A DNA stretch of 64,000 nucleotides from Thermoleophilaceae bacterium (lineage in GTDB: Bacteria > Actinomycetota > Thermoleophilia > Solirubrobacterales > Thermoleophilaceae), in NCBI GenBank assembly GCA_030447905.1, contig JAUJNZ010000006.1:7813-71812 (forward strand). The letters are read 5' to 3'. Shown in pieces: positions 889 to 9,260 of this stretch (position 1 is its first letter; every line of letters starts with the position of its first letter). A program made the translations under genes and the position numbers. Below the pieces are notes generated by a model, which worked only from the letters and a program-made list of their open reading frames with translations, was not told the origin of the DNA and ran no database searches.

Positions 889-3177
889 CTACCGCCCACC
901 GAAGCGGCCGAGCGATCGCAACACGGGACCGCCCCCGCCGCCCCGGTCGATCTCGAACACCTCGACCCGGTTGGCGCCGGGTCGCAGCGCCGCTTCCGGA
1001 ACGACGACGGACAGGCGCTCGACCCCGCTGTCGCCGACGAAGAAGCTCTCGGCCGTGACGGCGAGTCGCCCGTTGACGGCCACCCCGAGCGCCCGCTTGC
1101 GCGGCTCGCGGCTCTGGATCCGGCCGGTGACGTGAGCCGGGACGACACCGGAACCCGGGTCGACCGCCCGTAGCGCCTCCGGGGCGTCGAGCCGGGCGCG
1201 CGCCGGTGCCGGTTCCCGGGCGACCGACAGCCGGTCGAGCGAGCTTCCGTGCAGCTCCGGGTAAGGGCCGAGCCCAAAGGGGTCGGAGGCGGTGCCGAAG
1301 AGTGCGCGCTTGCGCACGAGCGCTGCCGCCTGCTGTCGCTCGAGCCGTCGGGTGCTCAACGAGACCGGACGGTCGTCGATCCCTCGGCTGATCCGCGAGC
1401 GACGGTCGGCGCCCTGCACCATCGTCACGGTCTCCCGGCGGGCCATGGCGGGATCCATGGCCGAGCGCCCGTCGACCCGCCACGGCAGGCGTGCCCCCAA
1501 CAGGTCGGCGATCGTGGGAACCAGGTCGGTGCTCTGGACGTAGGCGTCACTGACCTCTCCGCCGCGCTGCCGAGGGGCCTTGACGAGGAGAGGGACGGAG
1601 GCCACGTCGGCGAACGTGCGCTTAGTGACAGCCCGGCGATCCTCGCCGGGCTGGAACGTGGCGCCGTGGTCGGCTGTCACCACGATCAGGGCACGGTCGA
1701 AGACGTCCTTGGTACGCAGGCGATCGAGCACGCGCCCCAGCAACCTGTCGGAGAACTCGAGCTGGAGGAGGTGACGCTGGTAGCCCTGCCCCGCAGCGAA
1801 GCGATCGCGTTGCGGCTCGGTGCCGCTCGGAGGCACGAGTCCCTCGATCGTGCCCTCCGGGTCGAGCTCGTAGAGCTTCCCGGAAGGGAGGTGGTGAAAG
1901 GGGGTATGGGGAAACAGCGCGTGTTCGAAGTAGAGGGTCGAGTTGCCTTCCCCGAGCGAGGCGACGAAGCGGTCGAAGCGAGCGGTCCGCCTTCCGCTGC
2001 GCAGGTCCTTGGTGATGTTGGACCGAAGCTCCTGGACGTCCGTCTTCCCGCGTCGGCGGCCACGGCGGTTCTTCGATCCCGCTGGGGACTCGGCGTCATC
2101 CGTGGCCTCTCCTTGTGCGGGAAAGCCCTCTCGATCGGAGGCTGAGGGCAGGGCCGATCGCCATCGCGCGGGGACCACGAGGCGCCCGAAGACGACGGCG
2201 AGCTCGGCGGCGAGGGAGCGTGTACGCCCCTGGGCCCGGCCCCGACCGCCTCGCGACGAGCAGAGGTCGTCGGGGCAGAGACCGGTCGCCTCTTCGAACA
2301 CGGCCATGCGGTAGGAGCCGCCCAGCAGGGTGAACAGGTTCCGCGGATGGTCGGCGGCGATCGGTAGCTCGCCGGGACGGGGCTGGCGCCCGGTGAGCAG
2401 GGCGGGCACGGCCTTGCTCGAGCGGTCGTGTACGCCGGTGGCGTTCCGAAACCAGGTACCCGAACGCGCCAGTGCGGCGAAGTTCGGGTAACGCGCGGAG
2501 TCGAGCTCTCCGCGGTCGTCGAGCAGCGAGGTGAGCGGAAGCTCGTCGAACACGATCATCACCACCGGAGCCTGCGCGCCGACGGAGGCGCGAGCCTCGG
2601 ACCCGTGGCCGAGCACGATCCCCGAGACGGGGGAGACGAGCAGGAACAGGACGAGGAGGACGAGCGGCGCGGGCGCCAGCACGGTGAGCAGCGACCGCAG
2701 GCCCGCGACGCGCGCGTAGGCGAGCGCGCCCGCCGCCCCCATGGCCACGGCCACCAGGGCGAGTCCGAGGCCGCCGTCGGGGGCTAACCGCCCGAGGAGC
2801 TCGAGCGCGAGCAGGGCGACGAACCCCCCGAGGAAGGTGAGGGCGAGCCCCCATCGCAGGCGCCGGTCGATCAGGCCGGCGAGGAGCGCGAGCACGAGCA
2901 GCAGCGCCGGTGGGAGCAGAACCACCGAAAGCGCGGTGAGCACCACCTCCCGGGCCCCCGCGCCGCGCGTGGTGAAGAACTCGGGAGTGCTCCCCAGTCG
3001 CTCGAAGAGCGGTCCAGCGACGGCAAGCGCAGAGAGGACCGTCAGGTGGAGGAAGGCGAGGAGGGGCCTCTGGAGGCCGAAGTCGCCGTGCGGCCCCAAG
3101 ACTTCGCCCACCACCCGTCGGCCGCGCCTGCGGCGTGGAGCGGCTTGCGAGGCGGCGGGTTCGCTCACGTGGGGCAT
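889..3177 (-). CDS. membrane-anchored sulfatase/phosphotransferase-like protein (paralogue 1)
   Basis: A 762-aa protein of the alkaline-phosphatase superfamily. About five membrane helices occupy residues 37-190. The extracytoplasmic catalytic domain then begins with PVVMIVFDELP (204-214), which supplies the first metal-binding Asp. The nucleophile region is HDRSSKAVPALLTG (250-263), with Ser where sulfatases have the formylglycine Cys/Ser in CxPSR. A late metal site is TADHG (501-505). The lack of CxPxR suggests a phosphoglycerol-transferase/LtaS-like or phosphodiesterase chemistry rather than a classical arylsulfatase; that is inference. The ATG at 3177 was chosen because translation upstream is low-complexity and the paralogue at 5334 begins at the same relative point. 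A 207-bp gap separates it from the divergent AftB-like gene. Confidence 0.85.
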   Translation of the reverse strand: MPHVSEPAASQAAPRRRRGRRVVGEVLGPHGDFGLQRPLLAFLHLTVLSALAVAGPLFERLGSTPEFFTTRGAGAREVVLTALSVVLLPPALLLVLALLAGLIDRRLRWGLALTFLGGFVALLALELLGRLAPDGGLGLALVAVAMGAAGALAYARVAGLRSLLTVLAPAPLVLLVLFLLVSPVSGIVLGHGSEARASVGAQAPVVMIVFDELPLTSLLDDRGELDSARYPNFAALARSGTWFRNATGVHDRSSKAVPALLTGRQPRPGELPIAADHPRNLFTLLGGSYRMAVFEEATGLCPDDLCSSRGGRGRAQGRTRSLAAELAVVFGRLVVPARWRSALPSASDREGFPAQGEATDDAESPAGSKNRRGRRRGKTDVQELRSNITKDLRSGRRTARFDRFVASLGEGNSTLYFEHALFPHTPFHHLPSGKLYELDPEGTIEGLVPPSGTEPQRDRFAAGQGYQRHLLQLEFSDRLLGRVLDRLRTKDVFDRALIVVTADHGATFQPGEDRRAVTKRTFADVASVPLLVKAPRQRGGEVSDAYVQSTDLVPTIADLLGARLPWRVDGRSAMDPAMARRETVTMVQGADRRSRISRGIDDRPVSLSTRRLERQQAAALVRKRALFGTASDPFGLGPYPELHGSSLDRLSVAREPAPARARLDAPEALRAVDPGSGVVPAHVTGRIQSREPRKRALGVAVNGRLAVTAESFFVGDSGVERLSVVVPEAALRPGANRVEVFEIDRGGGGGPVLRSLGRFGGR

Positions 3178-3384
3178 CCTGGGGAAGGAGGGCGCGGCCC
3201 AGGGCGTACGTCGAAAACCGGGCGCCGAACGGCGAGGGCGAAGAGCGAAGACGTATAGCAGGCGCGAGACGCTATGCAGCTTGGCTAGGCCCTGTCCTGG
3301 CGCGAGTAGGCTTTCCGCCCGCTCCCCCGCGCGCCGCACGCCGCGCTGCGGCCGGCCGGCAGTGCCCTGCGTCCGACGCTCTCC

Positions 3385-5322
3385 TTGTCAGCAGCGAGCC
3401 CCCCCACAGAGACTCCTCCGCTACCGCACGGGGGCGAGCTCGCGCCGGGTACCCCACGTCGACGCGCGCTGGGGGGGCCTCCGCCGCGCCTTCAGTGGCC
3501 GCGCCTGCCGTGGCAGGGCGCCTACCGCCTGCTGCCGTTCGTGCCGGTGGGGCTGTTCGCGGTGCTCGCCTGGTCGCGGCTGTGGAGCAGCGAAGACGCC
3601 TTCATCTACTACCGGGTCGTCGACCAGCTACTGGCCGGCAACGGACCGGTGTTCAACGTCGGCGAGCGGGTCGAGGCCTACACCGGGCCGCTCTGGCTCG
3701 GAGTGCTGGCGGTCGCCCGGGCGGTGGCGCCCGCGGGCGTCGCTCTCGAATGGGTGTCGGTCGCGATCGGACTCGCGCTGTCGGTGGGCGGGCTGCTCGC
3801 GGCCGTGCTCGCGGCTCGGCGGCTGTGGTCGCCGACATTTGGGGCGAAAGCCCGTTCCGGCGCGCTCCTGCTCCCGCTCGGCGCTCTGGTCGTCGCCGCA
3901 CTCCCTCCGTTCTGGGACTACGCGACCTCCGGCCTCGAGACCGGCCTCGTCTTCGCCTGGCTGGGAGGGTCCTTCCTCGGACTCGTCGCCCTTGGATCAC
4001 CCTCCCGCGGCGAAAGGAGACATCCCGGCCGGACGCGCTACGGGCTCGCGGTGGTGCTCGGGCTCGGGCCGCTCGTGCGACCCGACCTCACGATCTTCGC
4101 GGCGGCGTTTCTCGTCGTATTGGCGATCCTCGAGCGTCCGGTGTCGCCGGGGCGAGCGCTGCGACTCCTCGCGAGCGCCGCGGCGATCCCGCTCGTCTAC
4201 CAGCTCTTTCGCATGGGCTACTTCGGCAGCCTCGTCCCCAGCACGGCTCTGGCCAAGGAGGCCGGTGCCGCCTACTGGAGCCGGGGATGGAGCTACCTCG
4301 TCAACCTGTTCGGCCCCTACGCGCTGTGGCTGCCGGTCGCGGCGCTGCTCGGTTGGGCGGCAGCGTCCGCTCGCGGCCTCTGGCGGGACTCCGAGCGCGA
4401 GCGGGCGCTGCTCGTGGCCGTGCCGATCGCCGCCGGCTTCCTTCAGGCCCTCTACGTCGTGCGGCTCGGCGGTGACTACATGCATGCCCGCATGCTCCTT
4501 CCCGGCCTGTTCGCGGTGCTCATGCCGGTGGCCGTCGTGATCGCGAAGCGCTGGTGGCCGACCGCCTTGCTCGCGGCCGTCATCGTGCCGTGGGCGGTCG
4601 TCGCCGCGTTTGCGCTGCGGGCACCCGCCGAGGACCCCAAGGACCCGACCGCCCTCAAGGTCTACGACCAGCGCCGCCGCTACGCCGAGCCCTGGGGCTA
4701 CCGGGACATGGTCACGCTCGGCGATTTCGCGGCTGTAGTGACCCAGCGGCCGGGGCTCCACGTCCGCCAGGGCCGCGAGCTTGCCGCCCTTGCCGAGTCG
4801 AGGCGCGTGGTGGTGCTCGGATTGACCCCGGACCGCCGACGCTTCAGCCGGGCATCGCCCCACCCGGTCCCGCTCGAGGGGGTCGCGCCGCGGCCGGAAG
4901 CGGGCTCTCCGGTGGTCGTGCGGACGGGGTCGATCGGGCGTGTCGGCCTCGGCGCGGGACCCCGGGTGCACATCGTGGACCGCTTCGGCCTCGCCGACCC
5001 GCTGGCCGCGCGCCTGCGCCTGCCCCCACAGCGTCCGGCTCAGCCCGGCCATGAGAAGAGCCTCCCAGGGGAGTGGGTGCTGGCCCGCTTCGCCGTACCC
5101 ACCACCGAGGCCGGAAGGCGGAAGCTGGCCACCAACCCCAACGTACAGGCCGCGCGGCGCGCGCTCGCCTGTCCGCCGCTGCGCGAGCTGAGTGCCGTGA
5201 CGACGGCTCCTCTGGACGCCGGCCGCTTCATCGACAACATCGGCTACGCGGTCCGCGAGCGGTCGCTGCGGTTCGCCGCCGAGCCGCCGTTGGCGGAGCG
5301 GGAGCTCTGCGCGCGCCGGTAG
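3385..5322 (+). CDS. AftB-like GT-C arabinofuranosyl-type transferase
   Basis: A 645-aa polytopic membrane protein with about ten hydrophobic segments in the first 420 residues and a soluble C-terminal domain of about 220. Near the N-terminus, SSEDAFIYYR followed by VFNVGERVEAYTGPLW matches the first-loop signature of the mycobacterial terminal arabinofuranosyltransferase AftB and its relatives, which place the catalytic acidic pair there. These enzymes move sugars from decaprenyl-phosphate donors to cell-wall glycans on the outside of the membrane. The start is TTG at 3385; no ATG or GTG precedes the first helix. It lies between two paralogous sulfatase-like genes, divergent from one and convergent with the other (11 bp), which suggests a shared envelope-polymer pathway. 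Donor and acceptor are unknown. Confidence 0.75.
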   Translation: MSAASPPTETPPLPHGGELAPGTPRRRALGGPPPRLQWPRLPWQGAYRLLPFVPVGLFAVLAWSRLWSSEDAFIYYRVVDQLLAGNGPVFNVGERVEAYTGPLWLGVLAVARAVAPAGVALEWVSVAIGLALSVGGLLAAVLAARRLWSPTFGAKARSGALLLPLGALVVAALPPFWDYATSGLETGLVFAWLGGSFLGLVALGSPSRGERRHPGRTRYGLAVVLGLGPLVRPDLTIFAAAFLVVLAILERPVSPGRALRLLASAAAIPLVYQLFRMGYFGSLVPSTALAKEAGAAYWSRGWSYLVNLFGPYALWLPVAALLGWAAASARGLWRDSERERALLVAVPIAAGFLQALYVVRLGGDYMHARMLLPGLFAVLMPVAVVIAKRWWPTALLAAVIVPWAVVAAFALRAPAEDPKDPTALKVYDQRRRYAEPWGYRDMVTLGDFAAVVTQRPGLHVRQGRELAALAESRRVVVLGLTPDRRRFSRASPHPVPLEGVAPRPEAGSPVVVRTGSIGRVGLGAGPRVHIVDRFGLADPLAARLRLPPQRPAQPGHEKSLPGEWVLARFAVPTTEAGRRKLATNPNVQAARRALACPPLRELSAVTTAPLDAGRFIDNIGYAVRERSLRFAAEPPLAERELCARR

Positions 5323-5333
5323 GTGCGTGCGGT

Positions 5334-7604
5334 TCAGGCCCCGGCGCGCGCCCCGAAGCGGCCCAGCGACCGCAGCCCGCCGCCCCCGATCTCCAGTACC
5401 TCGACCTCGTTTGCGCCGCGGCGGTACGCCGAGGCGGGCACCAGGCCGGAGAGCAGCTCGACCCCCTCGTCTGCCAGGAAGAAGGTCTCGCCGACGGCGG
5501 CGATGCGGCCGTTGACCGCATACGCGAGCGCGCGCTTGCGCGGCGCAGCGCTGCGGACCCGCCCGGTGAGCTGGGCGGGGACGAAGCCCGAGGCCGGGTC
5601 GACCGCCGCGAGCTCGTCCGGCGCGTCGAGCTCGGCCCGCGCGGACGCCGGCCCGCGCACGATGGCGAGGTCGTCGAGCGCGCGCCCCCGCAGCTCGGAG
5701 CGCGGGCCGAGCGAGAAAGGATCGGCTCGCGGGCCGAAGAGGGCGAGCTTGCGTGCGAGCGACGCCCGCTGTTGGCGCTCGAGCGCGCCCGTGGTGACGG
5801 AGACCGGGCGGTCCCGGGCGCCGCGGCTGATGCGAGCGCGGCGCTCGGCGCCCTGGATCATGCTGACGCTGCTCGGCCGCCCCGCCCGGGGCTCGAGGGC
5901 CGAGCGCCCGTCGAGGCGCCACGGCAGCCGGACGCCGAGCACATCGGCGATCGTCGGGACGATGTCGGTGGTCTGGACGTAGGCTTCGATCCTTCGCGCC
6001 TCGTCCTGGTCGGGCTCCTTGACGAGCAGCGGTACGGAGGCGATGTCGGCGAACGTCCGCTCGGTGACGGCGCGGCGATCGTCACCGGCCCTGAAGACCG
6101 CCCCGTGGTCGGCGGTGACGACGATCAGGGCGCGGTCGAAGTGCTGCTGCTCGCGCAGGCGATCGAGCACCCGACCCAGCAGCCGGTCGGTGTAGCCGAC
6201 CTGGAGCAGGTGGCGCGCGTAGGCCTGGGAGGCGGCGAAGCGGTCGCGCAGGGGCTCGGTGCCACTCGGCGGGACGAGCCCCTCGATCGCGTCCTGGTGA
6301 TCGCGCAGGTAGCGAGGACCCGACGGCAGGTGCTCGAAGGGGGCGTGCGGGAAGAAGGCGTGCTCGAAGAAGAGCGCCCGTCGATCGTCCCCGGAGCCAA
6401 GCGAGCCGACGAACCGGTCAAAGCGCCCGGCGCGCCCGCCGCGCAGGCCCCGCGTGAGCCCGCGAGCGAGGTCGCTCACCCCCTTGCCGCTGGTCTCGGA
6501 TCGCTCGCCGCGCGCGTCGCCCTCGGCCTCCGCGGCCAGATCGGCCCCGGCGAAGCCCTCCCATCCCTCGGAGACCGAGGGCAGCCTCGCGCCCAGCTCG
6601 TCCGGCAGCGCGACGTGGCCGAAGACCACGGCGAGGTCGGAGGCCAGCGAGCGCGTGCGCCGTCCGAGGCCTCCTTCGCGGCTTCCCTGGCGGCAGAGGT
6701 CGTCGGGGCAGACGCTCGTCGCCTCCTCGAAGACGTTCATCCGGTAGGAGCCGCCGAGCAGGGTAAACAGGCTGCGGGGGTGATCGGCGGCGATCGGCAG
6801 GCTTCCGGGGCGCGGGCGCCGGCCGGTGAGCACTGCGGGCACCGCCTTGCTGGTGCGGTCGTGGACGCCGGTGGCGTTCGGAAACCAGCTCGACTTGCGC
6901 GCGAGGCTCGCGAAGCTCGGGTAGCGCCGAGCGTCGATCTCACCCCGCGCGTCGAGCAGCGAGGTCAGCGGGAGCTCGTCGAAGACGATGAAGACGACCG
7001 GGGCGCTGGCGGTGACGCCGCCCGCCCGGGCACTCGACTCGGTGGCGAACACGAGTCTCGCCACCGGCGAGGCGACGAGAAAGAGGGCGAGGAAGACGAG
7101 CGGGGCGGGGGCGAGCGCGGTCAGGAACGTCCGCAGCCCACGCGCGCGCCCGTACGCAACCGCGGCGGCCGCCCCGGCGAGGGCGGCGATGACCAGGGGT
7201 ACGGCCGCTCCTAGATCGTCGATCCGCTTGAGCACCTGCACCGCCAGGATCGCCGCGAGCCCGGCGAGGAAGACCAGATGGAGCGGTCGGCGAAGGCCGG
7301 GGTGCGCTGCCCCGGCGAGTAGCTCCATGGCCAGCAGAGCCGCCGGCGGAGCCAGTGCCAGCGCGAGCCCGAACCCGACGATCTCAAGGCCTTCGGAGCC
7401 GCGCGTCGCGAAGAACTCGGCGTTGCGCCCGAGCAGGTCGAAGAGCGGCTGGGCGACCGCAAAGCCCCAGAGTGCCCCCAGGTGGAGAAAGGCGACGAGC
7501 ACTTCGCGCCCGGTCGGCCGGCGACGACCGCTCCGGGTCGCCGAGGCTCGCCCGGCGGCTGGCTCCTCGCCGCGCGGCGCGCGCGCGGTCGCCGGAGCGC
7601 TCAC
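5334..7604 (-). CDS. membrane-anchored sulfatase/phosphotransferase-like protein (paralogue 2)
   Basis: A 756-aa paralogue of the protein at 889-3177, with the same layout: a basic Ala/Arg-rich N-tail, about five membrane helices, then an alkaline-phosphatase-fold domain starting APVVFIVFDELP. The nucleophile segment is HDRTSKAVPAVLTG, with Thr where paralogue 1 has Ser, and again no CxPxR. The late metal motif TADHG is kept, as is the FEHAFFPHAPFEHLPSG stretch. The start is GTG at 7604, which overlaps the stop of the upstream methyltransferase by 4 bp (GTGA), so translational coupling is likely. The open frame continues far upstream, but that part is a shadow of the methyltransferase gene. 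The coupling puts this copy in the microprotein-methyltransferase cassette. Confidence 0.85.
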   Translation of the reverse strand: MSAPATARAPRGEEPAAGRASATRSGRRRPTGREVLVAFLHLGALWGFAVAQPLFDLLGRNAEFFATRGSEGLEIVGFGLALALAPPAALLAMELLAGAAHPGLRRPLHLVFLAGLAAILAVQVLKRIDDLGAAVPLVIAALAGAAAAVAYGRARGLRTFLTALAPAPLVFLALFLVASPVARLVFATESSARAGGVTASAPVVFIVFDELPLTSLLDARGEIDARRYPSFASLARKSSWFPNATGVHDRTSKAVPAVLTGRRPRPGSLPIAADHPRSLFTLLGGSYRMNVFEEATSVCPDDLCRQGSREGGLGRRTRSLASDLAVVFGHVALPDELGARLPSVSEGWEGFAGADLAAEAEGDARGERSETSGKGVSDLARGLTRGLRGGRAGRFDRFVGSLGSGDDRRALFFEHAFFPHAPFEHLPSGPRYLRDHQDAIEGLVPPSGTEPLRDRFAASQAYARHLLQVGYTDRLLGRVLDRLREQQHFDRALIVVTADHGAVFRAGDDRRAVTERTFADIASVPLLVKEPDQDEARRIEAYVQTTDIVPTIADVLGVRLPWRLDGRSALEPRAGRPSSVSMIQGAERRARISRGARDRPVSVTTGALERQQRASLARKLALFGPRADPFSLGPRSELRGRALDDLAIVRGPASARAELDAPDELAAVDPASGFVPAQLTGRVRSAAPRKRALAYAVNGRIAAVGETFFLADEGVELLSGLVPASAYRRGANEVEVLEIGGGGLRSLGRFGARAGA

Positions 7605-9076
7605 CGCCCGAGCGCGGTGTGGCCGTTGCCGCCGGCTGGACCCGCTCCGCGCGGCCGCGCGAAGTACAGGACGCGAGTCCCGGAGGAGAGGCGCTCGGAG
7701 CGCTCGACCTCGAACGCCTCGTCGAGGCAGCGCTCGAAGAACTCGCGGTCGTAGTCGAGGTGGGTCCCGGACCGCTTGGCCGCGAGCAGCTGCTCGACCT
7801 TCGGATCCTCGCGCGTCGGAAACTCGATCACGAGCGCCGCCCCGAGCGAGCGCAGCCAGTCGACGACCTCGCGGATCGGCACGTTGCCGGCGATCGAGAC
7901 GTGGTGGACCAGCGCCAGGCACAGCACGAGGTCCGGTCGTCCGCGGTCGAGCGCCGCCTTGCGCTCGACCCCGCGCCAGCCGAGCGCCGGCGACGGATCG
8001 GTGAGGTTCACGGTCAGTGGCAGGATCCGCCGATCGTCGGCGTCGCGCAGCGAGCGGTAGAGGTGCTCGATCGCTCCCTGGTCGCCGTCCATGGCGACGA
8101 CGTAGCCCGCACCCGCGTCGGCCGTGAGACGGGAGTGGCGCCCGTCGTTGGCACCGAGGTCCCAGACCAGACCCCACGGGCGCGAGCCCGCGACCTCGCG
8201 CACGAACCGGTCCTTCTCCTCGGTGTCGCGGTCGGTGTAGTGGGCGCGGTCGCCGTAGTCGGTCCACACGCCACTCGGCGGGCTCCACTCGAGCCGGCCG
8301 ACGAGCTTTCGAAGCTTCGAGACGTTGGCCCTGATCAGCTCCTTGTTGAAGCCGGCTTGGCTCAGCTCCCGCTTGACCTGGCGCGGGCGCTCGCCGTGGC
8401 GGCGCTCGAGGCGTGCGTGCAGGCGGACATGGGTGAGGACACCGCGGCGCAGCACGTCGCGCGCGGACGTGACCGCGCTCATCTGCGTCGGGGTGATTCC
8501 GTCGATCGCCCCGCGGAGCCAGGCGTGAGGGGCGAGACCCTTGTAGGCCTGGAGCATGAGCGGATAGAGGAAGAGCATGCAGAACTGCCGGTAGCCGATC
8601 CACGGCTCTCCCTCGGGCAGGCGCTCGAACGAGCCGACGTCGACGAACGTCGCCTGGGCGCCCCGGAACTGCACGTTGTAGGGCGAGGAGTCCTTGAGGA
8701 TCAGGTCCTCGTCGAGGCCGGCGAGCAGCAGGTCGAGTTGGAGCAGCGCCGCATCCCGGAGCATCCCGAACGGCCACTCGTACGGATAGGAGACGAACGG
8801 GATCTTCTCGTGCCTGAGGAGCCCCGCGACCTCTTCGGTGCGCAGGGCGGGAATGCTCTCGCGTACAGCATCGACGCGCTCCGTGGCGACGAGCCGCCCG
8901 TCGCCGGTGAAGCGCTCGAACAGGTGGCTTGCGGCGAGCGCCTCGAAGTCCTCGAGGCCCTGCGTGGAGAGCGCGCGCAAGACGCTCTCGTCGGTGTAGA
9001 GGACGGTAGAGTCGGCGTCGCGAAACGAGCCCGGCTCGAGGCGCACGCGCTCGCCCGCTCCGATCTCGAAGCTCAT
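7601..9076 (-). CDS. two-domain SAM-dependent methyltransferase of an envelope cassette
   Basis: A 491-aa cytosolic protein. The C-terminal half is a class I methyltransferase: motif I VWDLGANDGRHS (304-315), an acidic motif II at VVAMDGD (326-332) and a motif IV-like PDLVLCLALVHH. The N-terminal 240 residues are unusual: LILKDSSPYNVQF (125-137) followed by FVDVGSF (144-150) resembles the catalytic-loop and DFG elements of aminoglycoside-phosphotransferase-like kinases, then W..YRQFCMLFLYPL. Proteins of this build are often labelled NoeA-like nodulation methyltransferases. The kinase comparison is inference. It starts at ATG 9076, 28 bp after the microprotein stop, and its stop overlaps the start of paralogue 2 by 4 bp. 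The substrate is unknown; the partners suggest a surface-polymer precursor. Confidence 0.8.
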   Translation of the reverse strand: MSFEIGAGERVRLEPGSFRDADSTVLYTDESVLRALSTQGLEDFEALAASHLFERFTGDGRLVATERVDAVRESIPALRTEEVAGLLRHEKIPFVSYPYEWPFGMLRDAALLQLDLLLAGLDEDLILKDSSPYNVQFRGAQATFVDVGSFERLPEGEPWIGYRQFCMLFLYPLMLQAYKGLAPHAWLRGAIDGITPTQMSAVTSARDVLRRGVLTHVRLHARLERRHGERPRQVKRELSQAGFNKELIRANVSKLRKLVGRLEWSPPSGVWTDYGDRAHYTDRDTEEKDRFVREVAGSRPWGLVWDLGANDGRHSRLTADAGAGYVVAMDGDQGAIEHLYRSLRDADDRRILPLTVNLTDPSPALGWRGVERKAALDRGRPDLVLCLALVHHVSIAGNVPIREVVDWLRSLGAALVIEFPTREDPKVEQLLAAKRSGTHLDYDREFFERCLDEAFEVERSERLSSGTRVLYFARPRGAGPAGGNGHTALGR

Positions 9077-9104
9077 GGTCGGCTCACCCGAAGGCGAGCG
9101 GGGG

Positions 9105-9260
9105 TTAGGGCTTCTCCTCGACCTTCTTGGCGCGCGAGAAGATCGCGGTGATCCGGCGCCAGTAGAGCTTCATGGTCACCCCGACCGCGGCGATGCCGCC
9201 GACGAGGATCTGGATGATCATGCTCCCCGAGCCGGGATCGAGATAGCCAAACGGTTCCAC
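9105..9260 (-). CDS. 51-aa YLDPGSGS membrane microprotein
   Basis: A short gene that would be missed by length cut-offs. GTG at 9260 is preceded at a 6-nt spacing by a perfect AAGGAG ribosome site (plus-strand 9267-9272). The product starts MEPFGYLDPGSGS, continues as one hydrophobic helix (residues 14-30) and ends in a basic cytoplasmic tail (KLYWRRITAIFSRAKK). Small proteins with a Y[IL]DPG[ST]GS motif before a single helix are widespread but uncharacterised, and I recall them near methyltransferase and sulfatase-type genes. It is the first gene of a three-gene run (9260 to 5334). The open frame extends upstream, but that part is low-complexity and lacks a ribosome site. A scaffold or membrane-recruiting role is a guess. 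Confidence 0.8.
   Translation of the reverse strand: MEPFGYLDPGSGSMIIQILVGGIAAVGVTMKLYWRRITAIFSRAKKVEEKP

Follow-up and report, generated by a model that had tools for sequence, protein, structure and literature searches.

Comparison of gene neighborhoods strongly supports that a run of three genes, led by a membrane microprotein and followed by a NoeA-like kinase-methyltransferase and a membrane enzyme of the alkaline phosphatase superfamily, forms one conserved unit. The run was examined in 64,000 nucleotides of contig JAUJNZ010000006.1 from a Thermoleophilaceae bacterium (the window), and related runs were found in several phyla as well as around noeA of rhizobia.

Organization of the cassette

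The three genes, their order, and the overlap at the second junction were confirmed as described in the initial annotation (Table 1), and so was the ribosome site ahead of a small protein with a single predicted helix. Among the cassettes compared, the gaps between genes were mostly from -23 to +90 nt, with many of exactly -4. These short gaps and frequent overlaps suggest that the three genes may be co-transcribed. A scan for promoters and terminators gave no signal exceeding that of shuffled sequences, and no PADLOC match was obtained that would assign the cassette to a defense system.

Table 1. Features of the cassette, by position in the window
Feature	Position	Strand	Description
Microprotein gene	9260..9105	-	51 aa, GTG start, begins VEPFGYLDPGSGSMIIQ; YLDPGSGS motif, one TM helix, basic tail
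Shine-Dalgarno-like AAGGAG	9272-9267	-	6 nt 5' of the microprotein GTG; sequence reading
Microprotein residues 6-17, YLDPGSGSMIIQ	9210..9245	-	Near-invariant Y6, D8, G12, S13, Q17 (74-sequence tally and alignment)
NoeA-like kinase-methyltransferase gene	9076..7601	-	491 aa; 28 nt 3' of the microprotein gene
Kinase-fold domain, N-terminal, about residues 1-262	8291..9076	-	Alignment, AlphaFold, Foldseek; R34, D129, N134, D146 invariant
SAM methyltransferase domain, C-terminal, about residues 282-478	7643..8233	-	Pfam, AlphaFold, Foldseek
GTGA start/stop overlap of the methyltransferase and phosphatase-fold genes	7601..7604	-	4 bp; sequence reading
Membrane alkaline phosphatase superfamily gene, NoeB-like position	7604..5334	-	756 aa; five TM helices predicted ahead of the catalytic domain

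Two nearby genes were considered as additional members. At 3385-5322 (+) lies a homologue of the mycobacterial arabinofuranosyltransferase AftB (NF041481, E 9e-81; PDB 9dlf, E 1e-71), with a paralogue (61%) a short way upstream of the window (L174 5551-7479). In related genomes this gene does not lie beside the cassette, and it was left out. Divergent from it, at 889-3339 (-), is a gene for a second sulfatase-like enzyme (SulfB), about 58% identical to that of the cassette; it has no microprotein or methyltransferase of its own and was also rejected.

Conservation of the neighborhood

The microprotein gene adjoins the methyltransferase gene in 66 of 67 de-duplicated loci from several phyla, 65 of them detected by profile and one (L171) by eye. 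The sole locus without an adjacent microprotein, L170, has both enzymes. On a Deltaproteobacteria Smac51 plasmid (L137 6968-8605), the order is reversed, with the methyltransferase first and the microprotein second. An alkaline phosphatase superfamily gene was found within 3 kb of the methyltransferase in 54 of the 67 loci, and the same neighbor was present in 41 of the 50 loci where the flanking sequence exceeded 2.5 kb on each side of the methyltransferase; about one-fifth of the methyltransferase loci have no recognized phosphatase-fold gene nearby. Because genomes of the phylum hold roughly 0 to 13 PF00884 genes (4 in the source genome), the proximity of such a gene to the methyltransferase by chance is estimated at about one percent.

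Within the family of the source bacterium, the methyltransferase was present in 14 of 31 genomes, all 14 with the order microprotein, methyltransferase, phosphatase-fold gene (in one of them the contig breaks off within the locus, and another has a broken methyltransferase frame). The nearest named relative, a Thermoleophilaceae MAG (L029), has the same gene order, with 90% identity in the microprotein and 91% in the methyltransferase. Of 199 genomes sampled from the phylum, 21 carried the microprotein, and the methyltransferase was found in every one of these (21/21). The methyltransferase itself was counted in 24 genomes, after exclusion of a partial match to the SAM domain only (G035). The three methyltransferase genomes with no microprotein match were G016, where a divergent microprotein lies directly upstream; G148, where the tail of the microprotein is found at a contig end; and G184, where the contig begins inside the methyltransferase.

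Samples centered on more distant relatives gave a similar picture. Around a Chloroflexota relative, the methyltransferase was found in 19 of 151 genomes (one copy broken), and in 19/19 the microprotein gene lies immediately 5' of it in the same orientation; one more genome had the microprotein only. Around a Bacteroidetes relative, 4 of 148 genomes had the methyltransferase and three of these an adjacent microprotein; the microprotein was recognized by eye in G432 and lay on a separate contig in G202. At two loci, L159 (G300) and L201 (G527), the methyltransferase frame is apparently broken and the microprotein intact, and these breaks could be assembly errors. The conserved microprotein-led unit proposed in the initial annotation therefore extends well outside the source genome, and the refuting condition set there, the absence of a conserved neighborhood elsewhere, does not hold.

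The microprotein

No family in Pfam, NCBIfam, PHROGs, or PADLOC matched the microprotein, and a literature search with its motif returned unrelated proteins only. The earlier statement that no role had been assigned thus holds for the microprotein, whereas both enzymes belong to the known pair NoeA/NoeB. The family pattern is Y-[LI]-D-x-x-[ST]-G-S, followed by the helix. Tallied over 74 sequences, the near-invariant positions were Tyr (73/73), Asp (71/73), Gly (68/73), and Ser (66/73), and the Gln that opens the helix was present in 69/74. Values of dN/dS were about 0.1 to 0.3 in six pairs of relatives, indicating purifying selection. A second motif match in the source genome (L001) was not accepted as a relative, as the protein search recovered one copy only.

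A single TM helix was predicted, by hydropathy only. Across 25 aligned relatives, Lys and Arg were absent from the motif stretch and averaged 4.9 in the 20 residues past the helix. Because of this charge distribution, the positive-inside rule places the motif outside and the basic tail inside, and the microprotein is accordingly predicted to span the membrane once with its YLDPGSGS end on the outer face. A W-R-R-I segment at the inner face is moderately conserved. In about 14 relatives, the Tyr is immediately preceded by a hydrophobic leader that ends in A-x-A or a similar sequence, and signal peptide cleavage at this point probably exposes the motif in many relatives; several microproteins, including those of the window, L033, and L042, have no cleavable leader. 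The distance matrices of the microprotein and the methyltransferase were correlated (r = 0.63, with 0/2,000 permutations as high), a correlation that may stem from shared ancestry alone.

The kinase-methyltransferase

The two domains previously ascribed to the methyltransferase were upheld, but their nature was revised: from alignment, AlphaFold, and Foldseek, the protein is modeled as an N-terminal protein kinase fold joined to a C-terminal SAM domain. The Pfam match to the methyltransferase domain was weak (PF08242, E 0.0017). The AlphaFold model of the whole protein had a pLDDT of 85 and a pTM of 0.88, and its Foldseek matches were SAM methyltransferases, with NodS first and WbdD also present. 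When the N-terminal domain was modeled alone (pLDDT 86), kinases were found throughout the top 50 Foldseek matches, at E values of about 1e-5 and modest TM-scores of 0.3 to 0.45; one of the 50 is listed as a pre-40S ribosome chain. The four residues of this domain given in Table 1 are invariant in 29 aligned sequences. The one hydrophobic stretch of the protein falls within the modeled SAM domain, and no convincing TM helix was seen. Homology to NoeA extends over the full length: tblastn against plasmids matched Sinorhizobium and Rhizobium copies, one annotated noeA, with 93 to 95% coverage, about 32 to 33% identity, and E values of about 1e-53 to 1e-57.

The phosphatase superfamily enzyme

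The third gene had been described as encoding a sulfatase-like membrane enzyme. The match to Sulfatase PF00884 (E 3e-18; 66.5 bits against a gathering cutoff of 25) and the TM helices predicted ahead of the catalytic domain (hydropathy only) agree with this description, but the formylglycine motif C/S-x-P-x-R is absent, and identity as a type I sulfatase was rejected. In seven relatives, T/S occupies the sulfatase position, followed by ...VP-[AS]-[LIVM]-L-[TS]-G. Conserved residues of the enzyme are D209/E210, T251, H415/H420, and D499-H500. Judged from these sequence features, it should rather be named a putative Thr/Ser-nucleophile member of the alkaline phosphatase superfamily.

Like LtaS/EptA/LapC-type enzymes, it has N-terminal TM helices and a catalytic domain that carries an acidic ligand, DH ligands, and a Thr in the place of the nucleophile. 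The spacing of these residues after the TM region would fit a phospholipid head-group transferase of the LtaS/EptA type. Unlike the named enzymes, it scores far under the curated cutoff of every named NCBIfam model, with weak matches to LapC and LtaS, and no significant full-length match was obtained. Its best matches to solved structures by sequence were a phosphonate monoester hydrolase and sulfatases. By analogy with LtaS and EptA, a Thr/Ser with the D209/E210 and D499-H500 pattern would suit phosphate chemistry.

Relation to NoeA/NoeB and other known systems

NoeA and NoeB are host-range genes known for decades. A literature search found no established chemistry for them. The cassette resembles the nodL-noeA-noeB operon of Sinorhizobium meliloti, in which a homologous methyltransferase has a sulfatase-like gene directly 3' and a YLDPGTGS microprotein directly 5'. 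The genes run in the order nodL, a 71-aa "hypothetical protein," noeA (or an unnamed match), and a sulfatase-like gene in both Ensifer canadensis and Rhizobium sp. T136, and S. meliloti SM11 also carries the 71-aa microprotein. The rhizobial protein, of the YLDPGTGS type, reads ...VPAHA followed by YLDPGTGSMLVQ...; unlike it, the microprotein of the window has no signal peptide leader. No paper on the 71-aa protein was found, and the noe genes are absent from the main text of the S. meliloti small-proteome paper. There are further differences from the S. meliloti operon. No nodL or nodulation context was seen in the window, nor any nod genes beside the cassette. Whereas NoeB has 553 aa, the third enzyme of the window is longer (Table 1) and belongs to a different superfamily subgroup; NoeB of L138 also falls within PF00884. 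In Novosphingobium PP1Y, the same triad adjoins exopolysaccharide genes.

A link to NoeA/NoeB has been reported for Lani_1194 of Legionella, a kinase-methyltransferase and NoeA homologue (PMC9758233). According to the main text of that paper, Lani_1194 has the catalytic D/N/D with Arg replacing the usual Lys, its conserved neighbors Lani_1193 and Lani_1195 occur in 65% and 38% of neighborhoods, respectively, and the family is treated as likely effectors (PMC9758233). As described there, the family shares with the cassette a kinase fold followed by a methyltransferase, the D/N/D and Arg residues, and same-strand neighbors that include an alkaline phosphatase-fold NoeB homologue; compared with its 65% and 38%, microprotein adjacency scored here at the DNA level was 66/67. 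The main text of PMC9758233 contains neither a YLDPG microprotein nor a description of Lani_1193, which may be a member of the microprotein family.

Like WbdD, the O9a chain-terminating kinase-methyltransferase (PDB 4azs), the second enzyme carries the domains for both activities on one protein. Unlike in WbdD, the kinase precedes the methyltransferase, and the SAM domain closes the protein, with no coiled coil behind it. Membership of the WbdD family, with its methyltransferase-kinase order and C-terminal coiled coil, was therefore rejected. WbdD is not known to have a microprotein or phosphatase-fold partner.

Split cassettes

In G013 and G028, one microprotein lies beside the methyltransferase (L042, L044) and a second one immediately before the phosphatase-fold gene (L047, L050). 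The copies are near-identical, being the same through motif and helix and differing in their tails. G025 and G178 have a microprotein-methyltransferase pair and, apart from it, pairs of a microprotein with a phosphatase-fold gene. A microprotein stands ahead of a PF01663-type member of the alkaline phosphatase superfamily in G232 and G268. The microprotein is thus found with the methyltransferase alone, with a phosphatase-fold enzyme alone, or with both. Because split cassettes keep a separate copy with each enzyme, the microprotein is tied to both enzyme types.

Other arrangements were also observed. Two Chloroflexota loci (L160 5980-7998 and L166 6035-8068) have no methyltransferase in the vicinity; there, the microprotein gene is immediately followed by a PF01663 phosphodiesterase-type gene. 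At L165 (G305:C39) 5676-6221, it has neither enzyme beside it, and an alpha/beta hydrolase-like gene is next.

Proposed function

We favor, at about an even chance of being correct, the reading that the microprotein is a shared component serving both enzymes of a widespread module for modification of the envelope or of exported glycans, with rhizobial noeA-noeB as its known example. Most likely, the cytosolic kinase-methyltransferase would phosphorylate and/or methylate a lipid-linked or soon-exported glycan. The third enzyme would work across the membrane, on the other side, using a Thr nucleophile as in LtaS and EptA and not the formylglycine of sulfatases. The microprotein would handle the common substrate at the membrane and bring the inner and outer enzymes to it. 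The sequences are compatible with recruitment or coupling of both enzymes at the membrane by the microprotein. Several observations count against the favored reading: a phosphatase-fold gene is not recognized near about one-fifth of the loci, both enzymes of L170 do without an adjacent microprotein, the conserved motif would point away from the cytosolic methyltransferase, and the AftB homologue, the glycan gene next to the cassette in the window, does not accompany it in relatives. A more far-reaching version is offered tentatively and is in our judgment doubtful: this unrecognized family of tiny membrane proteins would be an obligate third component of NoeA/NoeB systems and a shared subunit of inner kinase-methyltransferases and outer phosphatase superfamily enzymes, including an overlooked gene of nodL-noeA-noeB, and the two enzymes may relay a phosphorylated, methylated lipid-linked group from inside to outside.

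The microprotein might instead be a membrane anchor or adaptor that holds the soluble kinase-methyltransferase to the inner leaflet, with the pathway as the only link to the phosphatase-fold enzyme. The near-obligate pairing with a methyltransferase that lacks a convincing TM helix, together with the conserved W-R-R-I at the inner face, would fit such a role. We consider it unlikely, because conservation in the microprotein peaks in a segment (Y.D..GS...Q) that is predicted to be at the outer face, which argues against simple recruitment of the methyltransferase, and because the microprotein also occurs beside phosphatase-fold enzymes with no methyltransferase nearby (L047, L050, L049, L160, L166, L173).

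Somewhat less probable still is a role as substrate or acceptor, in which the microprotein would be exported as a small peptide and the enzymes would modify its exposed Tyr/Asp/Ser end. The A-x-A-type leaders before the invariant Tyr would give a defined N terminus, and the presence of the microprotein with either enzyme alone is consistent with this role. However, the kinase and SAM-dependent enzyme is cytosolic, on the side opposite to that predicted for the conserved end, and the cleavable leader is missing from several members.

That the gene is a translational-coupling leader open reading frame for the methyltransferase, with no function as a protein, appears very improbable: its position directly upstream, with short gaps or overlaps, would suit this role, but the conservation is at the protein level with low dN/dS, and the microprotein gene is also found 3' of the methyltransferase gene (L137) and ahead of phosphatase-fold genes that have no methyltransferase with them. 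A coincidental grouping of three unrelated genes in one genome is refuted by the order conserved across genomes and phyla and can be disregarded.

With a shared component for both enzymes as the preferred reading, what is new is a third gene that had been overlooked in a classic operon; both enzymes and some of their neighborhood were already known. The microprotein probably functions as part of a system that modifies the envelope or a signal. Being nearly always beside noeA, its gene is a concrete and easily deleted target, and single-gene studies of NoeA-type enzymes may have missed a needed partner. The wide spread of the unit in non-nodulating bacteria implies that its original function would have been a general modification of the envelope or of exported glycans.
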